From Parvibaculum sp. (GTDB lineage: Bacteria > Pseudomonadota > Alphaproteobacteria > Parvibaculales > Parvibaculaceae): DNA of 64,000 bases. Position numbers and translations under genes: made by a program. The notes under the pieces were generated by a model. The model did not search any database. It was not told where the DNA came from and was given only the letters and a program-made list of their open reading frames with translations. Positions 4,244 through 58,469 of this stretch are shown in pieces. Within the stretch, counting starts at the first letter, position 1, and each line of letters opens with the position of its first letter. The DNA is taken from NCBI RefSeq assembly GCF_030651915.1, contig NZ_JAUSBV010000005.1, positions 806,001 to 870,000 of the forward strand, written 5' to 3'.

Positions 4244-4843
4244 ATGCGTTCCAACGACCTACGCGGGCAGGCTATGCCTGCCAAACCTCTTTCATTCGGC
4301 GCCCATCAAGCCCGCCGAAAGGCAGCGGCCCGCAGCGTGCGACGTGCCGCGCCGGTGGCAGAGGCCTTTTGCAAGGTCCGCCGGCATATCCGCTTCATGC
4401 TGCTGTTTTGCGGCGCCGTTTTTGCGGTGGGATCGTATCTTCAAGAGCCCGCCGCCGTGCACCGGCCAGCCGACCTCCGCGTTCCAGCCGGCTTCAGCGC
4501 ACCCGCCGACAGCTTCCGCTCCTCGGTGCCCGCGATTGACGTTTATGACGGCGACACCATACGCATCGGTTCGGAACGAATCCGCCTTCTGGGCTTCGAT
4601 ACGCCGGAACTCGGCCACAATTCCCGATGCGCCCGCGAGGCTCACGACGCCATTCGCGCGCGCGACTATCTCGAGGCAGAGATTGCGAGGGGCCGGGACA
4701 TTCGCATCGAGCGCAGCGGAACCGACCGTTATGGCCGGACGCTGGCGCAGCTCTATATCGACGGGACCGATGTGTCCGACACGATGATCGGCCGAGGTCT
4801 TGGCCGCAGCTATTCGGGCGGGCGGCGCGACGGCTGGTGCTGA
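4244..4843 (+). CDS. Membrane-anchored thermonuclease-family (SNase-like) protein
   Basis: A 199-residue protein: a basic N-terminus, one hydrophobic segment (about residues 49-64, MLLFCGAVFAVG), then a staphylococcal-nuclease-like domain over the C-terminal 110 residues. Family residues are visible: the calcium-binding aspartate in VYDGDTIRIG, the arginine and acidic pair in RIRLLGFDTPELG, and the catalytic arginine in DRYGRTLAQLY. The product is probably an extracytoplasmic, membrane-tethered Ca-dependent nuclease. The start is uncertain: GTG 4235, ATG 4244 and ATG 4274 are all in frame, the last with GGGCAGG close upstream. It converges on the hydrolase gene with a 15-base gap. Confidence 0.8.
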   Translation: MRSNDLRGQAMPAKPLSFGAHQARRKAAARSVRRAAPVAEAFCKVRRHIRFMLLFCGAVFAVGSYLQEPAAVHRPADLRVPAGFSAPADSFRSSVPAIDVYDGDTIRIGSERIRLLGFDTPELGHNSRCAREAHDAIRARDYLEAEIARGRDIRIERSGTDRYGRTLAQLYIDGTDVSDTMIGRGLGRSYSGGRRDGWC

Positions 4844-4858
4844 TCGGCAAGCCGCAGG

Positions 4859-6013
4859 CTACGCCAGACTCTCATAGATCGCCTCGATCAGGGCGCGGTT
4901 GCGCGGGTTCTGCCAGCGCGGGCCCATGTCGTTGGTGACATAGGCGAAGGCGACGCGGGCCTGCGGATCGCAGAAGCCCAATGAGCCGCCGGCACCGAAA
5001 TGGCCGAAGGCGACATCGTTGGGGCCGAGGCGGCGTTCGGCCTGGGGCAGTTGAAAGCCAAGCGCGAAACGCGACTCGCGATCGAGGATGCGGTCGCGGC
5101 CGAAGGATTGTTCGGTGGTCGCTTCGGTCAACATGGCGGGCGAGAGGATTTCGACGCCGTCGATGGCGCCGCCATTGGCGAGCGCCGCATAGATGCGGGC
5201 GATGCCGCGCGCCGTGCCGTGGCCGTTGGTGGAGGGGATTTCGGCGGTGCGCCATTCGCTACTGTTGACCCAGCCGGCGCCCGAAATGCCGGGCGGGTTC
5301 CAGTAGGTGTTCCACTTCATCAACGCATCGTCGTCGAGCGAGGTTTCGGGACGCGGGATCTCGACGGACGGCCAGAGGAACTCGGCGCAGCGCGAATGCT
5401 CCGTCTGCGGAAGGCCGATATGGATGTCGGCGCCGAGCGGGCCCGCCACTTCGTCGCGCAGGATCTGGCCGAGGGTCCGGCCGCCGGCGCGGCGCACCAG
5501 CTCGCCCGCGAGATAGCCGAACGTGTTGACGTGATAGCCATGGGCGGTGCCGGGCTCCCACCAGGGCGTTTGCGCGGCCAGTGCCGCCGTCATGCGCGGC
5601 CAGTCGAACATGGCGCCATCGGGCAGCGGTTCGCGGATCGCGGGCAGGCCTGCCTGATGAGCGAGGATGTGGCGCAGCGTGATGCGCTCCTTGCCGGCAG
5701 CGGCGAATTCCGGCCAATGCGTCGCGGCCGGCGCATCGAGATCGAGAAGTCCGCGCTCGACGAGACGCAGCGCGACCAGCGACGTGAAGGCCTTGCCGAC
5801 GGAGAAGAAGTTGACCAACGTGTCGCGCGCCCAGGGATTTTGCCGCGCGGCGTCGCGCCAGCCGCCCCAGAGATCGGCGACGAGGCGGCCCTCGACCATC
5901 AGCGCGACGGCCCCGCCCGGCTCGCTGCGTTCGCGGAAATTGCCGATGAAGGCTTCGCGGACTGGCGCAAAACGCGGGTCGCAAGTGCCGCCGATGGGGA
6001 TTTCGTCCTTCAC
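4859..6013 (-). CDS. Serine hydrolase of the beta-lactamase/EstB family
   Basis: A 384-residue class C beta-lactamase-like esterase. The nucleophile motif S-x-x-K is seen in FFSVGKAFTS, a tyrosine motif in GYHVNTFGYLAGEL, and a C-terminal FGHFGAGGSLGF takes the place of the KTG box. Members hydrolyse esters or beta-lactam-like substrates; the substrate cannot be told from sequence. The start is taken as GTG at 6013 because it overlaps the stop of the YhhN-family gene (GTGA). The open frame extends upstream to 6169, but that extension lies inside the yhhN frame and looks like a shadow. Translationally coupled to the membrane protein upstream. Confidence 0.85.
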   Translation of the reverse strand: MKDEIPIGGTCDPRFAPVREAFIGNFRERSEPGGAVALMVEGRLVADLWGGWRDAARQNPWARDTLVNFFSVGKAFTSLVALRLVERGLLDLDAPAATHWPEFAAAGKERITLRHILAHQAGLPAIREPLPDGAMFDWPRMTAALAAQTPWWEPGTAHGYHVNTFGYLAGELVRRAGGRTLGQILRDEVAGPLGADIHIGLPQTEHSRCAEFLWPSVEIPRPETSLDDDALMKWNTYWNPPGISGAGWVNSSEWRTAEIPSTNGHGTARGIARIYAALANGGAIDGVEILSPAMLTEATTEQSFGRDRILDRESRFALGFQLPQAERRLGPNDVAFGHFGAGGSLGFCDPQARVAFAYVTNDMGPRWQNPRNRALIEAIYESLA

Positions 6014-48355: not shown

Positions 48356-49531
48356 CTATTCAGGCCGATGACCCGGCCCATAGGCCTTCAACAGCCCCGC
48401 GCCGATGCGCTCGTTCATCATCTCCGTACTGCCGTCGGTATAGGCGGCCAGTTTGGCGCAGGCGAGGTGGCGGCCGAGGCCGTGTTCCTCGCGCAGGCCC
48501 GCCGCGCCCATCGTCTGGATGCAGTCGGCGATGCGCGGCAGCGTGACGCGGCCGGCGAATTTTTTCGCATGCGCCGCCGCCATCACGGCGTCGCCGCCCT
48601 TATCGATCAGGCGGCCGGCGGCCAGCGTCAACCCGCGCAGCGCTTCGAGATCGTTGGCGACGTCGCCGAGCGACCAGTTGAGACCCTGATGTTCGGTCAG
48701 CTTCTTGCCGAAGGCCTGGCGCCCCGCGCCATACGCAAGCGCCGTTTCGAGGCTTGCGGCGAGCATGCCGGCGCACATCGCCGCGACATAGACGCGGGCG
48801 CCGTTGACGCCCTTCATCGCAAGTTTGAACGCCTCACCGGGCGGGGCCAGCATGTCGTCCTCGGGGGCGAGGTAATCCTCGAGCGCGAAGCCGCCGGCGC
48901 CGATCGCATGGCCGCCCATCAGCGCATAGGATTCGGCGCGGCGGAAGCCCGGGCGGCGCGCATCGACCAGAAAGCAGGCGATGCCGCGCCAGCCGGCGGA
49001 AGGATCGGTCTGCACATAGGTGATGAAGAGATCGGCGATGGCGGCATTGGTGATCCAGCCCTTCTCGCCGTTGAGACGCCAGCCGGTGGCGGTCTTGACA
49101 GCGCTGGCGCGGATCGCCGAAAAGTCGCTGCCGGCGCCGGGCTCGCTCAGCGCCGTGGCGCCGAAGATTTCGCCTTTCATCAGCGCCGGCACATGCGCCT
49201 CGCGATGGCGCGCCGTCGGCGAGAGCGCCAGTCGCGCGGCGACGTTATGCGTGTTGACCAGCGAAAACGTGAAGGCCATGTCGGCGCGCGACATTTCCTC
49301 GCAAAGCGCCAGCTTGACCATGTAGCGGTGGCCGGGGCCGCCCGCTTGCTTCGGCACTTCGAGCGCGGCGAGGCCGAGCGCGGCGGCCGCGCGCAAGGCC
49401 TCGACGGGTTGGCGGCGGGTGCGTTCCCAGGCCGCCGCGTTGGGTGCGACCGTCTCGCGGGCGAAAGCGGCCGCCTGGTCGAGCAAGGTCGCCTCGTCCG
49501 CCGTCAACTCGTCGCGCAGAAATCCCGCCAT
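48356..49531 (-). CDS. Acyl-CoA dehydrogenase-like protein with atypical active site
   Basis: A 391-residue member of the acyl-CoA dehydrogenase family. FAD/substrate contacts are in ATALSEPGAGSDFSAIRA near residue 125, and the C-terminal signature reads AAYTDGSTEMMNERIG. Where medium-chain enzymes have the catalytic Glu (YEGT) this protein has Asp-Gly-Ser, and the alternative isovaleryl-type position reads VNGARVYVAA with no Glu. Aspartate-base dehydrogenases acting on cyclic acyl-CoAs are known, so the substrate may be unusual (inference). Last gene of the TetR-thioesterase unit. Confidence 0.85.
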   Translation of the reverse strand: MAGFLRDELTADEATLLDQAAAFARETVAPNAAAWERTRRQPVEALRAAAALGLAALEVPKQAGGPGHRYMVKLALCEEMSRADMAFTFSLVNTHNVAARLALSPTARHREAHVPALMKGEIFGATALSEPGAGSDFSAIRASAVKTATGWRLNGEKGWITNAAIADLFITYVQTDPSAGWRGIACFLVDARRPGFRRAESYALMGGHAIGAGGFALEDYLAPEDDMLAPPGEAFKLAMKGVNGARVYVAAMCAGMLAASLETALAYGAGRQAFGKKLTEHQGLNWSLGDVANDLEALRGLTLAAGRLIDKGGDAVMAAAHAKKFAGRVTLPRIADCIQTMGAAGLREEHGLGRHLACAKLAAYTDGSTEMMNERIGAGLLKAYGPGHRPE

Positions 49532-49547: not shown

Positions 49548-50468
49548 TCAGACGCCGAGACCGTCGATCACCAGCGATTCCAGATTGGTGCGCATTTCGT
49601 CGGGAATGGCAATCGCCTTGCGCGTCGTCAGGTCGAGCGCGACGGCGACCGCTTCGGCGGTGGCGATCGCCTCGCCGGTTTCGAGATCGAAGAGCCAGTG
49701 GCACCAGGTGTAGATTTTCGGACCGACATTCTTGAGACCGCTGCGGAGCGTCAGCACATCGCCCGCGCGCGGATGGCGGCGATAAACGAAGCGGTATTCA
49801 AGCGCGGCACCGCCCACCGTCGGCGTCCTCGAGCGGTCGGCGCCGCTTGTCTGCGCCAGCAGATTGGGAATGCCGTCGGAAACGATGCCCATGAAATGAC
49901 GGATCGTCAGGAAGCCGTGGCTGTCGCATTGCGACGCGTCGATCTCGCCCTGCCAGGTGCGGACCATGCCCATGGCATCGGCCTCGGCAAGCTTCGGCGA
50001 GGGACGCGGCGTGTAGATGTCGAGACCGCGCGGGCTGCCATGCACCGGCAGGTCGACGACGAGCGCTTTTGCCGCCGCCTTGGCCTTTGCCGGCAGCGGC
50101 TTCACCTCGCGACTCTCCCCATCCAGCAACTCGACCTCGGCGATGAAGGTGGCCGCCACCTCGCCCGAAACCGTGTTGACCATCTCCTCATAGACGCGCA
50201 GGCCGAAATCGCGCGGCTCGAGAATGCCGGCGCGGATGAAGAAGGGCGCGCCGGGGCGCTGCTCGCGCAGGAAACGGACATGATGATCGCGGACGAAGAA
50301 GCGCGCCCCGTCGGCACGGGCGAAGCGCGGACCAAGGCCCAGATGCAGCGCCAGCGCGGCAAGCCCCTGCCCCGCCTTGTCGACATAGAACTGCACGTTC
50401 ATGTGGCCCATCTGATCGCTCTCCCAGGTCTGGACGCTGGAGCGGGCCACTTCGATCATCTCACTCAT
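49548..50468 (-). CDS. Double-hotdog acyl-CoA thioesterase, paralogue 1
   Basis: A 306-residue protein of two fused YbgC-like hotdog domains. The N-terminal motif WESDQMGHMNVQFYV near residue 15 has the catalytic-type Asp. The C-terminal domain's equivalent is degenerate (QCDSHGFLTIRHFM), keeping Asp but replacing the His and Asn. A Pro-rich linker joins them. It belongs to a run of three similar genes upstream of the acyl-CoA dehydrogenase, which starts 16 bases after its stop. Likely cytoplasmic acyl-CoA hydrolase. Confidence 0.83.
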   Translation of the reverse strand: MSEMIEVARSSVQTWESDQMGHMNVQFYVDKAGQGLAALALHLGLGPRFARADGARFFVRDHHVRFLREQRPGAPFFIRAGILEPRDFGLRVYEEMVNTVSGEVAATFIAEVELLDGESREVKPLPAKAKAAAKALVVDLPVHGSPRGLDIYTPRPSPKLAEADAMGMVRTWQGEIDASQCDSHGFLTIRHFMGIVSDGIPNLLAQTSGADRSRTPTVGGAALEYRFVYRRHPRAGDVLTLRSGLKNVGPKIYTWCHWLFDLETGEAIATAEAVAVALDLTTRKAIAIPDEMRTNLESLVIDGLGV

Positions 50469-50522: not shown

Positions 50523-51416
50523 TCAGACGCGCGCCCGCAGCGCTTCGGGCAGCGCCACGGCCTTGCGGCTCGCCCTGTCGAAAAGGAGACCGGCGCCTTC
50601 GGCGGCGCAAGCGGGCTCGCCAGTGTCGCCCGAGAAAAGCCAGTGGCGGTAACGGATCGTCTTGCCTTCGACGCCCAGAATGCCGGTGCGCACGACAATG
50701 GTTTCGCCGGCGCGCAATTCGCGGAAATAAGCGAGGCGCATTTCGACGGTTGCCGTGGCCAGACCGCGGGCGGCCTGTTCGTGGCGGCCAAGGCCGGCAT
50801 GCGCCCACATATGGCCCTGCGCATCGGAAAACCGCGCCATGAAGAAGCGCGCATTCATGTGATTGTTGGTGTCGCATTCCCAGGTGTTGACGACCGAGCG
50901 GTTGGTTTCGACCATGCCGTCGGCATCGGCACGGGCCAGCGAGACGTCGCGCGAGAGCGCTTCGGGCGGCAGCGCGCGCGGCAGCGCTTCGGGCGGCAGA
51001 GCGGTTTTCATCGCCTCGGCGCGGCGGCGCGTTTCGCCGGGCCAGGCCGTCAGGCGGCGCGTCGCCAGATCGAGGCAGCCGGTATCGACGACATAGGTCG
51101 CGGCCAGCCGGTCGTCGAGCACCTCGCGCATTTCCTGATAGATGCGCATCGTCTTGTCGCGCAATTCGACAATACCGGAGCGGATCGTCACCAGATCGCT
51201 GGTGCGCAATTCGCGGTGAAAGCGGATGTGATGTTCGAGCGCGACATAGCCAAGGCCCGATTGCGGCTGGTCGAGTGCGGCCAGCCCCAGCGCGACGCGC
51301 AGATTGTAGGAGCTGTCGGAACTCTTCGAGATGTAGTGCTGGATGTTCATGTGGCCCATCTCGTCGCATTCCTGCATCGAGACATAGCCGCGATAGGTGT
51401 CGATCATGCCGGTCAT
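50523..51416 (-). CDS. Double-hotdog acyl-CoA thioesterase, paralogue 2
   Basis: A 297-residue double-hotdog protein. The N-terminal motif MQECDEMGHMNIQHYI near residue 14 is intact. The C-terminal motif WECDTNNHMNARFFM has Gly replaced by Asn but keeps Asp, His and Asn. The linker holds an ALPPEAL-type repeat. The ATG overlaps the end of paralogue 3 (ATGA), so it is translationally coupled. The domain order is the same in all three paralogues, implying duplication of an already fused gene. Confidence 0.84.
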   Translation of the reverse strand: MTGMIDTYRGYVSMQECDEMGHMNIQHYISKSSDSSYNLRVALGLAALDQPQSGLGYVALEHHIRFHRELRTSDLVTIRSGIVELRDKTMRIYQEMREVLDDRLAATYVVDTGCLDLATRRLTAWPGETRRRAEAMKTALPPEALPRALPPEALSRDVSLARADADGMVETNRSVVNTWECDTNNHMNARFFMARFSDAQGHMWAHAGLGRHEQAARGLATATVEMRLAYFRELRAGETIVVRTGILGVEGKTIRYRHWLFSGDTGEPACAAEGAGLLFDRASRKAVALPEALRARV

Positions 51417-52330
51417 GCGAGCGCCCTGACCTGCGGCGCGAGACGTGCGCGCTCCTCGTCGGTGAAGGCGACGGTCTTTCGCGCATCGAGATCGAGCATC
51501 ACGGCGATCGCCTCGCCGGTCGCGACCGTTTCACCGGTCTCGGCATCGAACATGAAATGGGCGAAGGTCAGCGTCTTGCCGTCGAGGCGGGTCAGCGTAC
51601 TGCGGACGATCAGCATCGCGCCGGACCGGACCTCGCGCAGATAGTTCAGGCGCATTTCGAGCACCACCGTACCCCGGCGCTTTTCCTGCATGTGACGCTT
51701 GTCCATGCCGAGCGCCTGCCAGAGATGGCCGGCACCGTCCGAAAACCGCGCCATGTAGAAGCGTGAGTTCATGTGGCCGAAATCGTCGCACTCCCAGGGC
51801 ATGACGGCGCCGCGATAGATTTCGATGAAGCCGCGCGCTTCCGCCTCCGCAAGTGTCAACGGCGCAATACGCACTTCGCGCGCGACGCTGCGCGGTTCGG
51901 CATGCGGCGGCAGAGGCGCGAGGAAAGGCGCCGCCTTGTCATGCGCTTCGGCGGGCCAGGGGATCAGCCTGCGCTTCTCGAGATCGAAATGGCCACTGAC
52001 GGCGACGATGGTTGCCGCGGTCTCGCCCGAAGCCGAATTGAATAGCTCGTGATAGCTCACCAGCGTTCGCTCGCGCAGCTTCACCGGCCGCGAGCGCATA
52101 TGCATCAGGTCGCCCGCCCGGAGTTCGCGGTGAAAGCGGAAATGCTCTTCCAGCGCCACCATGGCCCGGCCCTCGGCGCGCACTTGCGACGGCGCGAGCC
52201 CCAGCGCATGGCGCAGCCAGAAAGCCGCGTCCGAGGCGCGGGCCACATAGAACTGCACGTTCATATGGCCCACCTCGTCGCACTCCCATGTGTTCACGGT
52301 GCCGCGAAACGTATCGAGAAATTCGGTCAT
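51413..52330 (-). CDS. Double-hotdog acyl-CoA thioesterase, paralogue 3
   Basis: A 305-residue double-hotdog protein with both motifs intact: WECDEVGHMNVQFYV near residue 14 and WECDDFGHMNSRFYM near residue 178. It is therefore the most canonical of the three. ATG 52330 (MTEFLDTFRG) is preferred over the frame's first Met at 52390, whose extra residues are Gly/Pro-rich. Lies 63 bases after the TetR gene on the same strand. Confidence 0.85.
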   Translation of the reverse strand: MTEFLDTFRGTVNTWECDEVGHMNVQFYVARASDAAFWLRHALGLAPSQVRAEGRAMVALEEHFRFHRELRAGDLMHMRSRPVKLRERTLVSYHELFNSASGETAATIVAVSGHFDLEKRRLIPWPAEAHDKAAPFLAPLPPHAEPRSVAREVRIAPLTLAEAEARGFIEIYRGAVMPWECDDFGHMNSRFYMARFSDGAGHLWQALGMDKRHMQEKRRGTVVLEMRLNYLREVRSGAMLIVRSTLTRLDGKTLTFAHFMFDAETGETVATGEAIAVMLDLDARKTVAFTDEERARLAPQVRALA

Positions 52331-52393
52331 GCCTGCTTGGAAGTTCAATGGCGGGTGGCGCAGCATAGGGGGGCCGCCGCCGCTTGTCATGGG

Positions 52394-53002
52394 TCAGCCC
52401 TTCGCGGGAAGTGCCGCCAGCCGGTGCGCCAACAGGTCTTCCGCAGGGAAACCCAGCGCCGCGAGGCGGCCCGTTCCTTCGAGCACCCTGAGCCCGATCA
52501 GGAAGGCGGCGAGGCAGAGGATTTCGCGGTGGGCAGCGGCGCCTTCAAGACCCGTTGCCGCGCGCAAGGGGCCGCCCAGCGTTTCGAGCACCGCGATGAC
52601 GCGGCCGGTGACGGCGCGGCTGAGATCGGGATCAAGCGCTTCGGCCGACATCAGCCGGCCGGCAAGGCGGACATGCGGGGTGTTACCGGCAGTAGCGGCC
52701 AGCGCCTCATACGCCGCGGCGGCCAGCGCGTCGGCGGGCGATGCCGCCTTCTCCGCTGCCTCGCGCATCCGTCTGGCGAGGTGCCCCAGCTCCTCGGCGG
52801 TCAGCGCGATCGCCAATTCGTCGATGCCGGCGAAATAGGAATAGACGGCGCCCGCCACATAGCCCGCTTCGGCGGCGACGGCGCGGATGGTCAGCGCCTC
52901 CGGCCCGCCTTCATCGCAGACGCGGCGCGCGGCGGCGAGGATCGCCTTGCGCTTGTGGTCGCGCAACGCCGTGCGGCGCTTTTCGGCGGCAGGCGCTGCC
53001 AT
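52394..53002 (-). CDS. TetR-family transcriptional regulator
   Basis: A 202-residue repressor. The N-terminal helix-turn-helix reads RKAILAAARRVCDEGGPEALTIRAVAAEAG and GAVYSYFAGIDELAIAL (about residues 18-65). The C-terminal ligand domain is Ala-rich and resembles the TetR_C domains of acyl- or aromatic-responsive regulators. Its start overlaps the upstream crotonase stop by one base (TGATG), so it is produced with the operon it is expected to control through the palindrome at 53925-53943. The ligand may be an acyl-CoA (inference). Confidence 0.88.
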   Translation of the reverse strand: MAAPAAEKRRTALRDHKRKAILAAARRVCDEGGPEALTIRAVAAEAGYVAGAVYSYFAGIDELAIALTAEELGHLARRMREAAEKAASPADALAAAAYEALAATAGNTPHVRLAGRLMSAEALDPDLSRAVTGRVIAVLETLGGPLRAATGLEGAAAHREILCLAAFLIGLRVLEGTGRLAALGFPAEDLLAHRLAALPAKG

Positions 53003-53880
53003 CAGAATTTGTACGTCGAACGGGAGGCGCCTTCGGCGATCGGGCCGCCGCCGTCGCGTTCCTTCACCGCCTGCTGGAAGCCGACCTGTTCGGCGCGCTC
53101 CTTGAACCAGACGCCTTCGGGCGAATGTCGGGTGATGCCATCGAACAGCGTCGCGAACATCTGCGTCGTCTGGAGGCCCATGTTTTCATAGGCCTGATTG
53201 ACCAGCAGCTTCTGCATCATCAGCTGATTGCGCGGCACGCCGGCCATGCGGTTCGCCAGTTCATCGACGCGGGCGTCGAGATCGGCGTCGGGCACGGCCT
53301 CAAGGACGAGGCCCATGGCGGCGGCCTCGGCGCCCGTCACCAGATCGCCGGTGAAGAGCATGCGCTTGGCGCGCTCCGGCCCGAGGCGATAGACCCACAT
53401 GGCGGTGGTCGGGCAACCCCAGACGCGGGCCGGCGGATAGCCGATCTTCGCATCCTCGGCCATCACCACCATGTCGCAGCAAAGCGCAATATCGGAACCG
53501 CCGGCGACCGCGAAGCCGCGCACTTTCGCAATCGTCGGCTTGTGGCAGCGCCAGAGCGACATGAAATCGCGCGTGTTGGCATGCATCATGTTGAAGTCGA
53601 CCATCGGGTCCCAGGGCCGGGTATCGCCCTTTGGCGTGCCCGCGCCCTGATTGCTTGTCGGCCTCTCGGCGAAGTCCTTCAGGTCGTAGCCGGCGCAGAA
53701 GGCGCGGCCGGCACCGGTCAGCACGATCACATGCACGTCGTCATCGTCATTCGCCTGTTCAACGGCGCGGGCCAGCTCGCGCGGCATGCCCGAGGCGATG
53801 GCGTTGAGGCGATCGGGACGATTGAGGGTGATGGTGGCGATGCGGCCCTGCCGCTCATAGAGGATGTGTTCGAAAGACAT
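53002..53880 (-). CDS. Crotonase-fold protein (enoyl-CoA hydratase/isomerase family)
   Basis: A 292-residue crotonase. The oxyanion region GRAFCAGYDLKDFAE near residue 60 and FAVAGGSDIALCCDMV near 126 are normal for the family, but the hydratase glutamates are replaced (GGSDI in place of GGxEL, YPPAR in place of QPEI). The activity may not be simple hydration. First gene of the TetR-regulated unit, about 33 bases after the -10 box of a good promoter. Confidence 0.86.
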   Translation of the reverse strand: MSFEHILYERQGRIATITLNRPDRLNAIASGMPRELARAVEQANDDDDVHVIVLTGAGRAFCAGYDLKDFAERPTSNQGAGTPKGDTRPWDPMVDFNMMHANTRDFMSLWRCHKPTIAKVRGFAVAGGSDIALCCDMVVMAEDAKIGYPPARVWGCPTTAMWVYRLGPERAKRMLFTGDLVTGAEAAAMGLVLEAVPDADLDARVDELANRMAGVPRNQLMMQKLLVNQAYENMGLQTTQMFATLFDGITRHSPEGVWFKERAEQVGFQQAVKERDGGGPIAEGASRSTYKF

Positions 53881-53912: not shown

Positions 53913-53941
53913 CATATATCGTAAAATTGAACATTGTTCAA
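53913..53941 (-). promoter_or_regulatory. Promoter of the TetR-thioesterase operon
   Basis: On the minus strand TTGAAC (53936-53941) and TATATG (53913-53918) are exactly 17 bases apart, in an AT-rich patch 33 bases before the crotonase ATG. This is one of the clearest sigma70-like promoters in the window. Confidence 0.75.
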
Positions 53942-53943
53942 TT
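53925..53943. promoter_or_regulatory. Likely TetR operator palindrome
   Basis: AATTGAACATTGTTCAATT is a perfect inverted repeat of 9-base arms around one base. It covers the -35 box and the spacer of the operon promoter, a position where a TetR dimer would block RNA polymerase. The regulator encoded in the operon is the natural candidate ligand-responsive repressor. Confidence 0.75.
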
Positions 53944-53960: not shown

Positions 53961-54005
53961 GCGCGGCGGATGCTGCGCCGCGCGTGGACCCCGGCTGATG
54001 CCGGG
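53961..54005. repeat. Two adjacent GC-rich hairpins
   Basis: GCGCGGCG (53961-53968) and CGCCGCGC (53976-53983) form an 8-bp stem with a 7-base loop. CCCGGC (53990-53995) and GCCGGG (54000-54005) form a second 6-bp stem with loop TGAT. They follow the stop of the HSL-type hydrolase on the minus strand and may act as its terminator or be an interspersed repeat. No T-run follows. Confidence 0.45.
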
Positions 54006-54020
54006 ATGTCAGTTCGGGGT

Positions 54021-54986
54021 TTAGGCCGTCGTGACGCGTTTCAGGAAGGCGTCGGCCTGCGCGTTGGCGGCGGCGGCGAGTGCGCCGGGGAAGGCGACGA
54101 AGCCATGAGCGCCGCCCGGATAAATGCCGAGTTCAGCCTCGTTGCCGGCCGCGATCCAGCGCGTATACATGAACAGCGAATCGTCAAGCAGCGCGTCGCG
54201 CGTGCCGACGGTGAAGAGCGCCGGACAGAGGCCTTTCAGATCGGCATAGAGCGGCGAGAGATCGGGGTCGCGCTTGTCCTTGACGCCTTTCAGGAAGGCT
54301 TCCGAAAATTTCTCAATGTCGAGCGTGCGCAGGATCAGGCGCTCGTTGCCGAAAGCGCGCTGGCTCGGCGTCATCGTCATGTCGAAGGCGCCGAAAACCA
54401 GATTGGCGCCCTTGAAGCCGGCATAGCCGTGGCGGTCGCGCATGCGCAAGATGGTGACGGCCGACAGATGCCCGCCGGCGCTTTCGCCGCCGATGGTCAG
54501 CCTGTCGGTGCCGAACTCCTTTTTTGCGTTGGCGACCAGCCAGACGGCCGCAGCCTCGCAATCGTCCGGGCCCGCTGGATAGGGATGTTCGGGCGCCAGG
54601 CGATATTCGACGCTGACGCAGGCGAGACCGACCCTGTCGGCGATACGTTCGAGCAGCGGGTCCTGCTGGTCGGCGGCGCCGAGCGTCCAGCCGCCGCCAT
54701 GGATGTGCAGATAGACGCCTTTCGGATTGTCGGGCGCGATGACGCGCAGCGCGATCTTGCCGCCCTTGCCGTCGATCTCGATCGTGCGGGCGCGGGGCGA
54801 TTTCGGCGCCAGCGGGAACGGACCTTCGCCGCGGGCGCGGGCGTCGCGCACTTCCTGCGCGCCGATGTCCCACCAGTCGGGGGCACCGTCCATCGCCTTG
54901 ATAATGGCGTCGTTGATGGCTTTCGTTTCGGCGGAAATCGCCTCGGCGGTGAAAAGCTTCGGGTCGAATGAATTGCTGCCTGACAT
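54021..54986 (-). CDS. HSL-family alpha/beta-hydrolase (lipase/esterase)
   Basis: A 321-residue hormone-sensitive-lipase-family esterase. The oxyanion motif [12 protein letters not shown] is near residue 93, the nucleophile elbow [13 protein letters not shown] near 165, the aspartate in [13 protein letters not shown] near 265, and the histidine in [11 protein letters not shown] near 295. Probably cytoplasmic; hydrolyses short- or medium-chain esters. It is divergent from the TetR-thioesterase operon and convergent with nothing nearby. Confidence 0.92.
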
Positions 54987-55045
54987 GTGTCCCCTCAGTG
55001 TTCGCGTTTCTTTTGGCGAAGTAGAGCGGATTTCCGGTGGATCGT

Positions 55046-56068
55046 CTATCGGACGCGCCAGGCCCAGGCGGCATCACCGCTGTCCATGCGGGAGGTCACT
55101 TCGAGCTTCAGATGGCGGTTGTGGACCGCGAGCGCGCCTTCCCAAAGGGCGTTCCAGGCGTCGAAGCAGGCAGGCGTGACGCCTTCCCTGCCCTCCATCA
55201 TGCGCCATGTCGAAATCGATACCTCGGCGCCGTCCACATCTGCCTTGTCGCCGCCGGCATCGAGCATGGCGCCGAGATAGCGCGCGAAGGCGGCGGCGTC
55301 GTTTCGCGCGACGCCGATCAATGCGGAGGTCGCATCGTAGCATTGCATGCCGATCAGCCGGCCGGCTTCCCAACCGAGTTTCCGCGCCTCGTCCTCGCCG
55401 AAGAGCGAGACGGCGGCGGGCAGGATCGAGCGGATATATTGCACGGCGTAGTTGCGCTTCGCCTTGACCATGCGCTCTTCGGACCACTCGACATGGGGAA
55501 GTTTCGCAGGGTCGACATCCGGGCCGTTTTCCTCGAAGCGGAAGCGCAGGCGTTCATCCGCCGCCAGCGGGCGCTCCTCCTCGATGAAATAGCCTTCGAG
55601 GCAGGGGTCGATACGGGTGGTGATGTTGGTGCAGACGAAGCCGAGATTGGGATTGCCGAGCGTTACGCCGACCTGCGAATGGAAGGCACGCATGAAGGCG
55701 ATGCTGGTTTCATTCGGTACCGCGCAGATCGCCGCGCCGTCCCAGATCCATCGCGGCGGCAGGTAGCGCACCCAGGCCTTGCGGTCGCTTTCAGGAATGA
55801 ACTCGCATTTCACGCCGCCGACATGGTTTGCCAGATAGATATATTGCGCGCAGGCGACGGCGGGCGGCAGCTTGTCGAGGCCGAGATTTTTGTAGCCCGC
55901 CAGAAATTTCTCGCGGTGCTGCGCCTGAAAGGTACGGAAGTTGAGTTCGGTGCCCGCCGCCTCGCCCTTGAAGACGACGGCGCGCAGGATCAGCCCCGTC
56001 AGGTAACGCTGATGAAGCTCCGCGCTCGCACGCCAAGCGTTGAGTTCTCCTTCGCTGGCCGCTGCCAT
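55046..56068 (-). CDS. Protein of unknown function
   Basis: A 340-residue protein not recognised. It begins [24 protein letters not shown] and contains conserved-looking segments such as [58 protein letters not shown] and [30 protein letters not shown]. The later part vaguely resembles small catalytic domains with a Met/Cys/Tyr-rich helix; no function is assigned. There is no signal peptide. It is downstream of two DJ-1 genes on the same strand, so it may share a pathway with them. Confidence 0.7.
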
Positions 56069-56107
56069 CCCGTCCTCCCTCACTTGTTCGGGGGGAGGAT
56101 AGCGCAA

Positions 56108-56725
56108 TCAGACGGCGGCGCTATAGGGCGGCGCGGGGTCGTACTCCATCAAGCGCTGCGTCAGGCGCGCATGGTCTTGCCCGTGCATCTGGCCGGTGAG
56201 CCAGAGCGCCATGTCGATGCCGGCCGAGACGCCGGCCGCGGTCACGACATTGCCGTCGCGGACATAGCGGATGTTTTCGAGCACTTCCAACGCTTCGCCA
56301 CGCTGGCGGAGCTGCTCGATGAAACCCCAATGGGTGGTAACGCGCTTACCCCGCGCCGGACCGGCCGCACAGAGAAGCAGCGCGCCGGTGCAGACGCTTG
56401 TCACCCATTCGGCGGCGGCATGCTGTGCGATCCAGCCGAGCAGCTTTTCGTTCTCCGCCTCGCGGCGCGTGCCCTGCCCGCCTGGCACCAGCAGCAGATC
56501 GAGTTTCGGTGCATCGGTGATCGACACATGCGCCTCGACGCGCATGCCCTTGGCGCCGGTGACGGGACCGCCCGTCTCCGAAATCAGCAACACGGTGTCG
56601 GGATGCTCGCGACCCTCGAACCCATGGGCCTCGTTCGACATGGTGAAGACCTCATAGGGGCCGACGAAATCGAGTTCCTCGACGCCGTCGAAGATCAAGA
56701 TGCCGATGGTGCGGTTCTTGGACAT
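56108..56725 (-). CDS. DJ-1/PfpI-superfamily protein (isonitrile-hydratase-like)
   Basis: A 205-residue DJ-1/PfpI protein. The nucleophile elbow is VTSVCTGALLLCAAG near residue 110 with the reactive cysteine, followed by GKRVTTHWGFIEQL and VVTAAGVSAGIDMAL. The acid partner glutamate lies in IFDGVEELDFVGPYEVF near residue 15. Similar to isonitrile hydratase InhA and to GlxA N-domains. The substrate is unknown. It lies 12 bases downstream of the second DJ-1 gene. Confidence 0.87.
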   Translation of the reverse strand: MSKNRTIGILIFDGVEELDFVGPYEVFTMSNEAHGFEGREHPDTVLLISETGGPVTGAKGMRVEAHVSITDAPKLDLLLVPGGQGTRREAENEKLLGWIAQHAAAEWVTSVCTGALLLCAAGPARGKRVTTHWGFIEQLRQRGEALEVLENIRYVRDGNVVTAAGVSAGIDMALWLTGQMHGQDHARLTQRLMEYDPAPPYSAAV

Positions 56726-56737
56726 GGCGCGTTCTCC

Positions 56738-57418
56738 TCAGAGGGACGGCTGGGCGAAGCGCGGCGGTATCGAATTCATGCGCTCAAACAGGATCGATTC
56801 TTCGGCGACGCGGATTACCTCGCGGATCGGATCGGGCACCTCGTCGGGCGAGGCGTAGCTGAAGGGCGGATGGGGATAATACTCGATGCCGAGCTGGATG
56901 GTCTTCGCCGTGTCCTCGCCAGCGATGATGCGCGCGAGATAGAGCGCTCCGTCGATGCCGGCCGAGACGCCTGCCGTCGTCACGATCTTGCCATCGCGGC
57001 GATAGCGGTCGGGGACGACATGCGCACCGAAGGAGGCCACCGACTCGCGGGCGTAGTAGTTCGTCGTCACCGTCTTGCCCTTCAGGATGCCGGCGGCCGC
57101 GAGAATTTCCACGCCATTGCAAACACCGAAAGTCCAGCTGGAGGTTTCGTGAAGCCGGCGGACAAAGGCGAGCGTCGCCTCGTTGGTCATTTGCGGCCGT
57201 CCGCCCGGCCCGCCCGGCACATAGAGAATGTCGGTCGCCTCGACTTCCGAATAGTCACGCCATGCAGCCATGCCGCCGGAGCGGAGATCGTCGGCGATGA
57301 TGGTTTTCCGTTCGGCGACGAATTCAACCTCGGCGCCCGGCAGCCAGCCGAGAACGGCATAGCCGCCGACCACGTCGAGCATGGTGAAGCCGTCATAGAG
57401 AAGAATGGAGATGCGCAT
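56738..57418 (-). CDS. DJ-1/PfpI-superfamily protein
   Basis: A 226-residue DJ-1/PfpI protein. The nucleophile cysteine is in WTFGVCNGVEILAAAG near residue 99, with GKTVTTNYYARES and KIVTTAGVSAGIDGAL downstream, the same order as the neighbouring paralogue. The N-terminus ISILLYDGFTMLDVVGG lacks the strict Glu at the DJ-1 acid position (Asp or Met instead). Its start overlaps the end of the GlxA-type regulator by 26 bases, indicating coupling. Confidence 0.86.
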   Translation of the reverse strand: MRISILLYDGFTMLDVVGGYAVLGWLPGAEVEFVAERKTIIADDLRSGGMAAWRDYSEVEATDILYVPGGPGGRPQMTNEATLAFVRRLHETSSWTFGVCNGVEILAAAGILKGKTVTTNYYARESVASFGAHVVPDRYRRDGKIVTTAGVSAGIDGALYLARIIAGEDTAKTIQLGIEYYPHPPFSYASPDEVPDPIREVIRVAEESILFERMNSIPPRFAQPSL

Positions 57419-58469
57419 TGATCGAGGTTCCCTGATTTGAAGGCGCGGGGTCGCGCCGGGCGGTGCGGAAGCGTTCGCGGTAGCGGCCGGGTGTCACACC
57501 CAGATGACGAATGAAGGCGCGGCGCATGCGCTCGGCGGCGCCGAAACCGGCATCGGCCGAAACGGCGTCGAGCGACAAATCGCTGCCGGCAAGGTGGCGG
57601 CAGGCCTCGTCAAGACGCGCGCGCTCGACGAATTGCGCGGGCGTGATACCGGTCTCTTCGGCGAAGCGGCGGGCAAAACTGCGTTCGCTCATGGCGGCGC
57701 GGGCGGCAAGCGCCGGCACCGAGAGATCGGCACGCGGATTTTCGATGACAAAAGCGCAGACGCGCGACAGGCGCGTGTCGGCAACGCGCTGGGCGGCAAG
57801 TTGCGCCGAGAATTGCGACTGGCCGCCGGGACGCATCAGGTACATCACATGATGACGGGCGATCAGCAGCGCCGCGTCGCGGCCGAGATCCTCCTCGATC
57901 AGTGCCAGCGCGAGGTCCATGCCCGCGGTGACGCCGGCCGATGTCCAGAACTTGCCGTCGCGCACATAGATCGCATCTTCTTCCACGGTCACGGCGGGGA
58001 AGCGCTGGCGCATGGCCGGCGCATATGCCCAATGCGTCGTGGCGCGGCGGCCGTCGAGAAGGCCAGCGGCAGCGAGGATGATGGCGCCGGTGCAGATCGA
58101 AACGACACGGGCAACCGGCCCGGCGGCCTTGCGGACAAAGCCGAGGAGCCGCTCGTCCTCCATCGCCGCGCGCGATCCGAGCCCGCCCGTCACCATCAAG
58201 GTGTCGAGTGTCGCGAGATCGGCCAATGTCAGGTCGCTTATCGCCCGGTCGGCATGCAACACCAGGCCGCTCGTCGTCGAGACGGGGCCGGGTTCGACCG
58301 AGACCAGTTCGACCGCATAGGCCGGGCGGCCATCAGGCAGCAGCGCCGTACTCAAAATCTGCAAGGGGCCGGCAATGTCGAGAATCTGGGCGTCGGCGTA
58401 GGCGAGCATCATCACCCGGCGGGGGACCTGGGTGGGATTGCGGGGACTTGATTTGGTGGCGCTGGTCAT
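57393..58469 (-). CDS. GlxA-type AraC-family transcriptional regulator
   Basis: A 358-residue regulator. The N-terminal DJ-1/PfpI domain (residues 18-195) has the elbow VSICTGAIILAAAGLLDG near residue 124, and the C-terminal AraC/XylS domain (residues 230-340) includes two HTH motifs (LSVPALAARAAMSERSFARRF and LSLDAVSADAGFGAAERMRRAF). Members regulate genes for nitrogen compounds such as isonitriles or glycine betaine. As first gene it probably controls the two DJ-1 genes that follow in the same unit. Confidence 0.9.
   Translation of the reverse strand: MTSATKSSPRNPTQVPRRVMMLAYADAQILDIAGPLQILSTALLPDGRPAYAVELVSVEPGPVSTTSGLVLHADRAISDLTLADLATLDTLMVTGGLGSRAAMEDERLLGFVRKAAGPVARVVSICTGAIILAAAGLLDGRRATTHWAYAPAMRQRFPAVTVEEDAIYVRDGKFWTSAGVTAGMDLALALIEEDLGRDAALLIARHHVMYLMRPGGQSQFSAQLAAQRVADTRLSRVCAFVIENPRADLSVPALAARAAMSERSFARRFAEETGITPAQFVERARLDEACRHLAGSDLSLDAVSADAGFGAAERMRRAFIRHLGVTPGRYRERFRTARRDPAPSNQGTSINAHLHSSL

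Follow-up and report, generated by a model that had tools for sequence, protein, structure and literature searches.

A tandem palindromic operator predicted to mediate autorepression of a TetR-family regulator in a crotonase/thioesterase operon of Parvibaculum

A 19-bp palindrome upstream of a crotonase/thioesterase operon is very likely the operator (O1) of the TetR-family regulator whose gene is the second in the same operon; this regulator is predicted to repress its own synthesis through occupancy of the −35 and −10 elements. Since in the related bacteria compared the palindrome is present together with the TetR gene and absent where the gene is absent, it is very probably the switch of the operon's own repressor. 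The original prediction had recognized here the usual arrangement of TetR self-repression. This reading is supported by the uniqueness of the palindrome core in the genome, by its co-occurrence with the TetR gene and by the recurrence of the site at 17 of 23 distant TetR loci. What the earlier reading did not include is a second, weaker operator (O2), which covers the −10 box, and the occurrence of the system beyond this genome.

Results

Operon, palindrome and promoter

Features of the operon and its promoter region are listed in Table 1; coordinates refer to the window, that is, the whole 64-kb stretch of DNA that was analyzed. Adjacent genes of the operon either overlap or lie no more than 54 bases apart, and the acyl-CoA dehydrogenase gene is its probable end. 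The minus-strand sequence of the promoter region, AATTGAACAATGTTCAATTTTACGATATATGTTTAATAATTAACCGGAACCGGGAGGAATCCG, is followed by the crotonase ATG at 53880. The order of elements on this strand is AATTGAACAATGTTCAATT, TT, ACGATATATGTTTAA, the Shine-Dalgarno-like GGGAGGAA and the ATG.

Table 1. Features of the operon and of its putative regulatory region
Feature	Position	Strand	Evidence and comments
Candidate operator O1, 19-bp palindrome AATTGAACAATGTTCAATT	53925-53943	-	sequence; 0-2 mismatches at 17/17 TetR-bearing Parvibaculum loci
Core of O1 TTGAACAATGTTCAA	53927-53941	-	15 bp, over the −35 element
Candidate operator O2 (weaker) ACGATATATGTTTAA	53908-53922	-	contains the −10 box; its centre is 19 bp from that of O1
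−35-like element TTGAAC	53936-53941	-	sequence; invariant in 17/17 aligned rows; putative promoter
−10-like element TATATG	53913-53918	-	sequence; 17-base spacer; putative promoter
Crotonase / enoyl-CoA hydratase family gene, operon gene 1	53002-53880	-	PF00378 2.3e-46; NF006128 452.8 bits, cut-off 257
TetR-family regulator, proposed repressor, operon gene 2	52394-53002	-	PF00440 2.6e-12; start codon overlaps the crotonase stop codon
Double-hotdog thioesterase-like gene 1 (4HBT_2)	51413-52390	-	PF13279 1.2e-41, two stretches; 3 bases past TetR
Double-hotdog thioesterase-like gene 2 (4HBT_2)	50523-51416	-	PF13279 9.8e-45, two stretches; start overlaps the stop of gene 1
Double-hotdog thioesterase-like gene 3 (4HBT_2)	49548-50468	-	PF13279 3.1e-26, two stretches; 54 bases past gene 2
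Acyl-CoA dehydrogenase gene	48356-49531	-	PF00441 4.3e-26, PF02770, PF02771; 16 bases past thioesterase gene 3

The perfect 19-bp palindrome claimed at the outset, AATTGAACATTGTTCAATT, is present at 53925–53943 as a single exact copy within the window; its perfection consists in two 9-bp arms about one unpaired central base. Given that approximately 1.0 palindrome with 9-bp arms and a one-base centre is expected per 64 kb (30 first-order Markov simulations) and one is observed, the length of O1 by itself does not exceed the chance expectation. Its uniqueness in the genome, its location and its conservation do exceed it. A chance palindrome, possible by length alone, was ruled out by conservation and co-occurrence with TetR.

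The 17-base distance between TTGAAC and TATATG and the overlap of the palindrome with the −35 box, both parts of the original prediction, were confirmed in the sequence. Each box matches the consensus TTGACA / TATAAT at four of six positions, and judging by the consensus the putative promoter is weak. It was not among the calls made in the window by a generic promoter scan with the threshold of 9 matches out of 12 and T at the last position. In 17 aligned rows, one per TetR-bearing Parvibaculum locus, the first two positions of the −10-like box are invariant and the remaining four are variable.

Several other elements flank the operon. A HicA/HicB-type toxin–antitoxin pair (PF07927, PF15919; 47668–48276, same strand) lies directly downstream. 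The upstream region 54021–58469 of the same strand contains a lipase-like gene, a DJ-1/PfpI gene, a gene of an AraC-type regulator with a DJ-1/PfpI domain and a 353-aa gene without a Pfam match. Several of these genes adjoin the thioesterase cluster in other genomes as well, including those that have no TetR gene, and hence may share the pathway of the operon. In the interval that separates O1 from the upstream lipase-like gene, G+C-rich inverted repeats occupy positions 53961–54012, with arms at 53961–53968/53976–53983, followed by GGACCCCGGC..GCCGGG at 53986–54005, which has one copy in the window. They are possibly a dispersed repeat or the terminator of the upstream gene.

Co-occurrence and conservation in close relatives

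The sample of close relatives comprised 40 genomes of the order, all from one family. Of the 27 genomes of the same genus, 17 have a TetR orthologue (E-value up to 1e-15), as against none of the 13 genomes of other genera; the 17 loci include the one in G029, where the TetR match covers 43 residues at the end of a contig. O1 was identified with at most two mismatches at each of the 17 loci. At the same level of mismatches, it was found in none of the ten genomes that have the thioesterase cluster and no TetR gene, the stretch around the cluster being scanned; eight of these belong to Parvibaculum (G012, G014, G022, G030, G031, G032, G035, G036) and two to another genus (G038, G039). G016 and G027, also without TetR, have no thioesterase match at 1e-20 and stand outside the ten. 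Fisher's test for co-occurrence of the site and the TetR gene yields p = 1.2e-7, a value to be read with the descent of the loci in mind, as related loci do not give independent counts.

Individual genomes separate the regulator from the enzymes. The crotonase gene is absent from G015 and G017 (none at 1e-80, and none in the locus stretch), and O1 there is located directly before TetR, at a distance of 71–92 bases from its tblastn match. G012 has kept the crotonase and two thioesterase genes; its TetR gene is gone, and so is O1, genome-wide. Hence the O1 site tracks the regulator and not the enzymes.

The clusters of G038 and G039 contain three-mismatch matches to O1, two and one, respectively. 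The match in G039 and one of the two in G038 fall in the 3' end of the lipase-like CDS preceding the crotonase gene and were dismissed as coding sequence.

When the 17 rows are aligned on O1, nine of 15 core columns are invariant, the central and the last bases being the most variable. Mean pairwise identity was calculated for 13 of the 17 rows (the closely related L003, L010, L014 and L018 were left out). It equals 0.98 and 0.90 for the two halves of O1, 0.27–0.31 for the upstream flank and 0.34 for the leader. The right half, GTTCAA, which lies outside the −35 box, has the identity of 0.91.

At locus L119 (genome G021), the crotonase (1579–2078) and acyl-CoA dehydrogenase (4795–5220) matches are broken into pieces, with TetR, two thioesterase genes and the palindrome left undamaged. 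This reflects either decaying operon ends or poor assembly.

The second operator

A positional weight matrix built from the Parvibaculum O1 sites was used to score the surrounding positions. At all 17 Parvibaculum loci (161 positions each) the second-best score is found exactly at +19. The consensus of this candidate operator O2 across the 17 rows is TTGATATATGTTCAA, with 12 of 15 bases common with O1. The O2 of the window itself is degenerate (matrix score 1.6). The GATA and TTCA columns of O2 are conserved, and the promoter function alone does not explain the site, since the identity is 0.92 for TTCA beyond the −10 box and 0.73 for the −10 hexamer.

The same spacing recurs at 12 of 17 distant loci with the site (see below), where the second-best site within 100 bp is exactly at ±19. 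Some of the distant second sites score below zero (−3.7 at L135 and −6.5, the lowest, at L137). The second-best site is elsewhere at five distant loci (L124, L125, L128, L129, L136); at four of these (L124, L125, L129, L136) the +19 position still ranks second or third. Locus L128 has two strong sites, 492–510 and 571–589, 79 bp apart, before a crotonase–TetR pair.

Distant homologues

When 385 genomes of the class were searched, with at most eight candidates scored per genome, TetR matches at 1e-18 appeared in at least 12 genomes, two of them of the same genus. Because of the limit on scored candidates, the known spread is a lower bound. Two family searches added further loci, giving 23 distant loci in total (L123–L145) with TetR homologues approximately 29–44% identical to the studied protein. 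Two Bacillus loci (31–33% identity over about 90 residues) were left out.

Although trained on Parvibaculum alone, the matrix detects a site at 17 of the 23 distant TetR loci with scores 18.8–31.2; the highest score in the simulation control (20 per locus) is 15.8. The best scores at the six remaining loci (L126, L127, L130, L138, L140, L145) do not exceed 0.4, and neither a crotonase nor a thioesterase was matched at these loci within about 1.5 kb. The crotonase gene lies between the site and TetR, as in the window, at 15 of the 17 site-bearing loci. At L123, the site directly precedes TetR, with a thioesterase gene behind it; at L125, a short locus, the site is present and no partner gene was detected. 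Three genomes of a distant family (G331, G425, G427) each have two TetR copies, one accompanied by the site and the other not; the latter copies make up three of the six site-less loci.

At L126, a related TetR without the site (1480–2070) is situated between relatives of the PfpI and alpha/beta hydrolase genes: the neighbourhood is like the flanks of the Parvibaculum operon, and the operator is different or there is none. Comparison of the recognition helices by eye shows that the two site-less groups differ from the others; the site-bearing group being variable in itself, we give this difference no weight. The long tandem-operator pattern of the distant clade, an overly specific one, had no match in 398 genomes of the phylum.

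Candidate sites elsewhere in the genomes

A genome-wide motif scan had been suggested as a check on the palindrome, and it revealed no abundance of unrelated copies: at up to two mismatches the 15-bp core TTGAACAWTGTTCAA has a single copy in the 3.5-Mb genome, which is the site described here. In the home genome there is thus no further core copy within two mismatches that would point to a wider regulon. The looser 13-bp core TGAACRNYGTTCA with one mismatch occurs 23 times per strand in the genome vs. 6 times for the control, too often for a verdict on single hits, and a few weaker extra targets may exist there.

Among the matches listed for other Parvibaculum genomes there are further core copies. 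They have two mismatches with the sole exception, among the same matches, of a one-mismatch copy in G014, a genome without TetR. A recurring copy, TTCAAAAATGTTCAA, is found in G018, G024 and G027 with identical flanks in all three genomes. It spans the apparent start codon of an open frame of 150 or 229 codons, directly behind GGAGGGG. Considered as a further target, it was rejected as the start of an unrelated gene, given that it spans the start of the open frame and is also present in G027, which lacks TetR. From its sites, the regulator looks like a local, one-promoter one.

The TetR protein

The statement that the only nearby TetR gene sits in the operon holds for the whole window: there is one TetR_N match within it, the operon's TetR, of 41 in the genome. 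The N-terminal TetR_N helix-turn-helix domain is recognized at 46.8 bits (PF00440, cut-off 24). The AlphaFold2 model (28 sequences, pLDDT 90.2) consists of helices only, that is, it has the all-helical TetR fold, and its Foldseek matches are solved TetR proteins, e.g. FadR, KstR and FasR. The first-ranking match is FadR from B. subtilis with stearoyl-CoA (3whc), and KstR with DNA (5fmp) is the ninth. A sequence search of solved structures retrieved 2nx4 and AvaR1 first, followed by FadR and KstR.

The best NCBIfam match by E-value is BetI (1e-9). The protein scores 38.4 bits with the BetI equivalog TIGR03384 (cut-off 201.3), 29.4 bits with that of B. subtilis FadR, NF053878 (cut-off 200), and 29.9 bits with that of KstR, NF033703 (cut-off 280). 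As all three cut-offs are far off, we assign the protein to the TetR family only. The fold and structure matches to FadR and KstR, along with the enzymes of the operon, suggest a ligand of the acyl-CoA type.

Discussion

Proposed mechanism and alternatives

The region contains, as a sequence feature, a palindromic operator in the promoter of the regulator's own operon, with O1 and O2 over the −35 and −10 boxes and tied to the TetR gene. We infer that TetR binds both sites, probably cooperatively, that the effect is repression and that a ligand relieves it. A TetR dimer on O1 would cover the −35 box. The weaker O2, located 19 bp downstream, would bind another dimer, which would mask the −10 box together with the start region. 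With RNA polymerase denied access, expression of the crotonase, of TetR itself and of the three double-hotdog thioesterases, probably along with that of the acyl-CoA dehydrogenase, would be kept low; TetR would thus limit its own synthesis. Release of TetR from the DNA would be brought about by a small ligand, the likeliest candidates being acyl-CoAs and other metabolites of the pathway.

The same sites might serve TetR as an activator or a dual regulator instead of a simple repressor. FasR, a named activator in the NCBIfam list, is among the fold matches, and some proteins of the family do activate transcription. However, a protein bound to O1 and O2 would sit on the −35 and −10 boxes, where it is expected to block polymerase, and a regulator gene inside its own operon is a usual layout of autorepression; we consider activation unlikely. 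It is very improbable that the palindrome is the operator of some other regulator, from the TetR family or another one, that also controls the operon. There are 41 TetR_N matches in the genome and many regulators bind palindromes, but a site of that kind would not be expected to track this particular TetR gene, and O1 is present or absent together with it. Moreover, TetR copies with and without the site coexist in the three distant genomes mentioned above.

Conservation of the promoter alone, the palindrome being a by-product of TTGAAC and chance, is hardly credible. Indeed, the left half of O1 is the −35 box, and about one palindrome with a one-base centre is expected per window. Nevertheless, GTTCAA (0.91) and TTCA (0.92) are nearly invariant outside both boxes, as compared with 0.73 for the −10 hexamer, and the palindrome is missing from the clusters without TetR. 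Repression of the operon by its own TetR through O1 and O2 remains the reading that we prefer. The conserved sites, placed in tandem at 19 bp over the promoter-like boxes, are consistent with it.

Implications

We lean towards regarding the system as an undescribed module of at least six alphaproteobacterial families, in which a TetR-family acyl-CoA sensor would guard a crotonase/double-hotdog thioesterase operon. Its two operators, one strong and one weak and probably cooperative, would cover the −35 and −10 elements at a constant spacing of 19 bp; the operator–regulator pair would move or be lost as a unit, and the enzyme cluster would persist without it. No description of this operator was found in open-licence papers by the core strings or by topic.

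The system offers a ready predicted operator–repressor pair for an acyl-CoA operon present in several alphaproteobacterial families. TetR-type repressors of this kind usually report a metabolite of their pathway. If this one does, the ligand that lifts TetR from O1 should reveal the substrates of the crotonase and the thioesterases. Genomes with and without the regulator provide a natural test of the value of this control.

Comparison with known systems

Autorepression by TetR-family proteins is common, and the conserved sites make the system a well-supported further case of this familiar design, with a conserved tandem-operator refinement. FadR from B. subtilis and KstR from Mycobacterium tuberculosis, acyl-CoA-type TetR repressors, are among the best Foldseek matches; they differ in sequence (about 18–20% identity to the operon's TetR) and in having several targets each, compared with the single strong site here. 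BetI, a choline-binding TetR repressor, also represses its own operon, but the genes of the operon studied here belong to other families. FadP was set aside because it is described as unique to betaproteobacteria among the groups compared (PMC5343134).

PsrA from Pseudomonas aeruginosa and Smlt2053 from Stenotrophomonas maltophilia are TetR-family regulators of fatty-acid metabolism. For Smlt2053, autorepression is reported from qRT-PCR of a deletion mutant and its complementation, and binding from gel shift; the operator of these regulators is G/CAAAC(N2-4)GTTTG/C (PMC10304680). The PsrA-type operator is not found here, the half-sites being TTGAAC and GTTCAA with three bases between them. Compared by the published operator, the systems differ in the operator itself, TTGAACAnTGTTCAA in our case, and in its second copy 19 bp away. 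Moreover, the operon studied here starts with a crotonase gene and holds three double-hotdog thioesterase genes. What they share is a regulator in one operon with enzyme genes, two of them in the published systems, and a palindromic box in its own promoter. PsrA and Smlt2053, autorepressors in fatty-acid operons, are the nearest studied parallel that we found.
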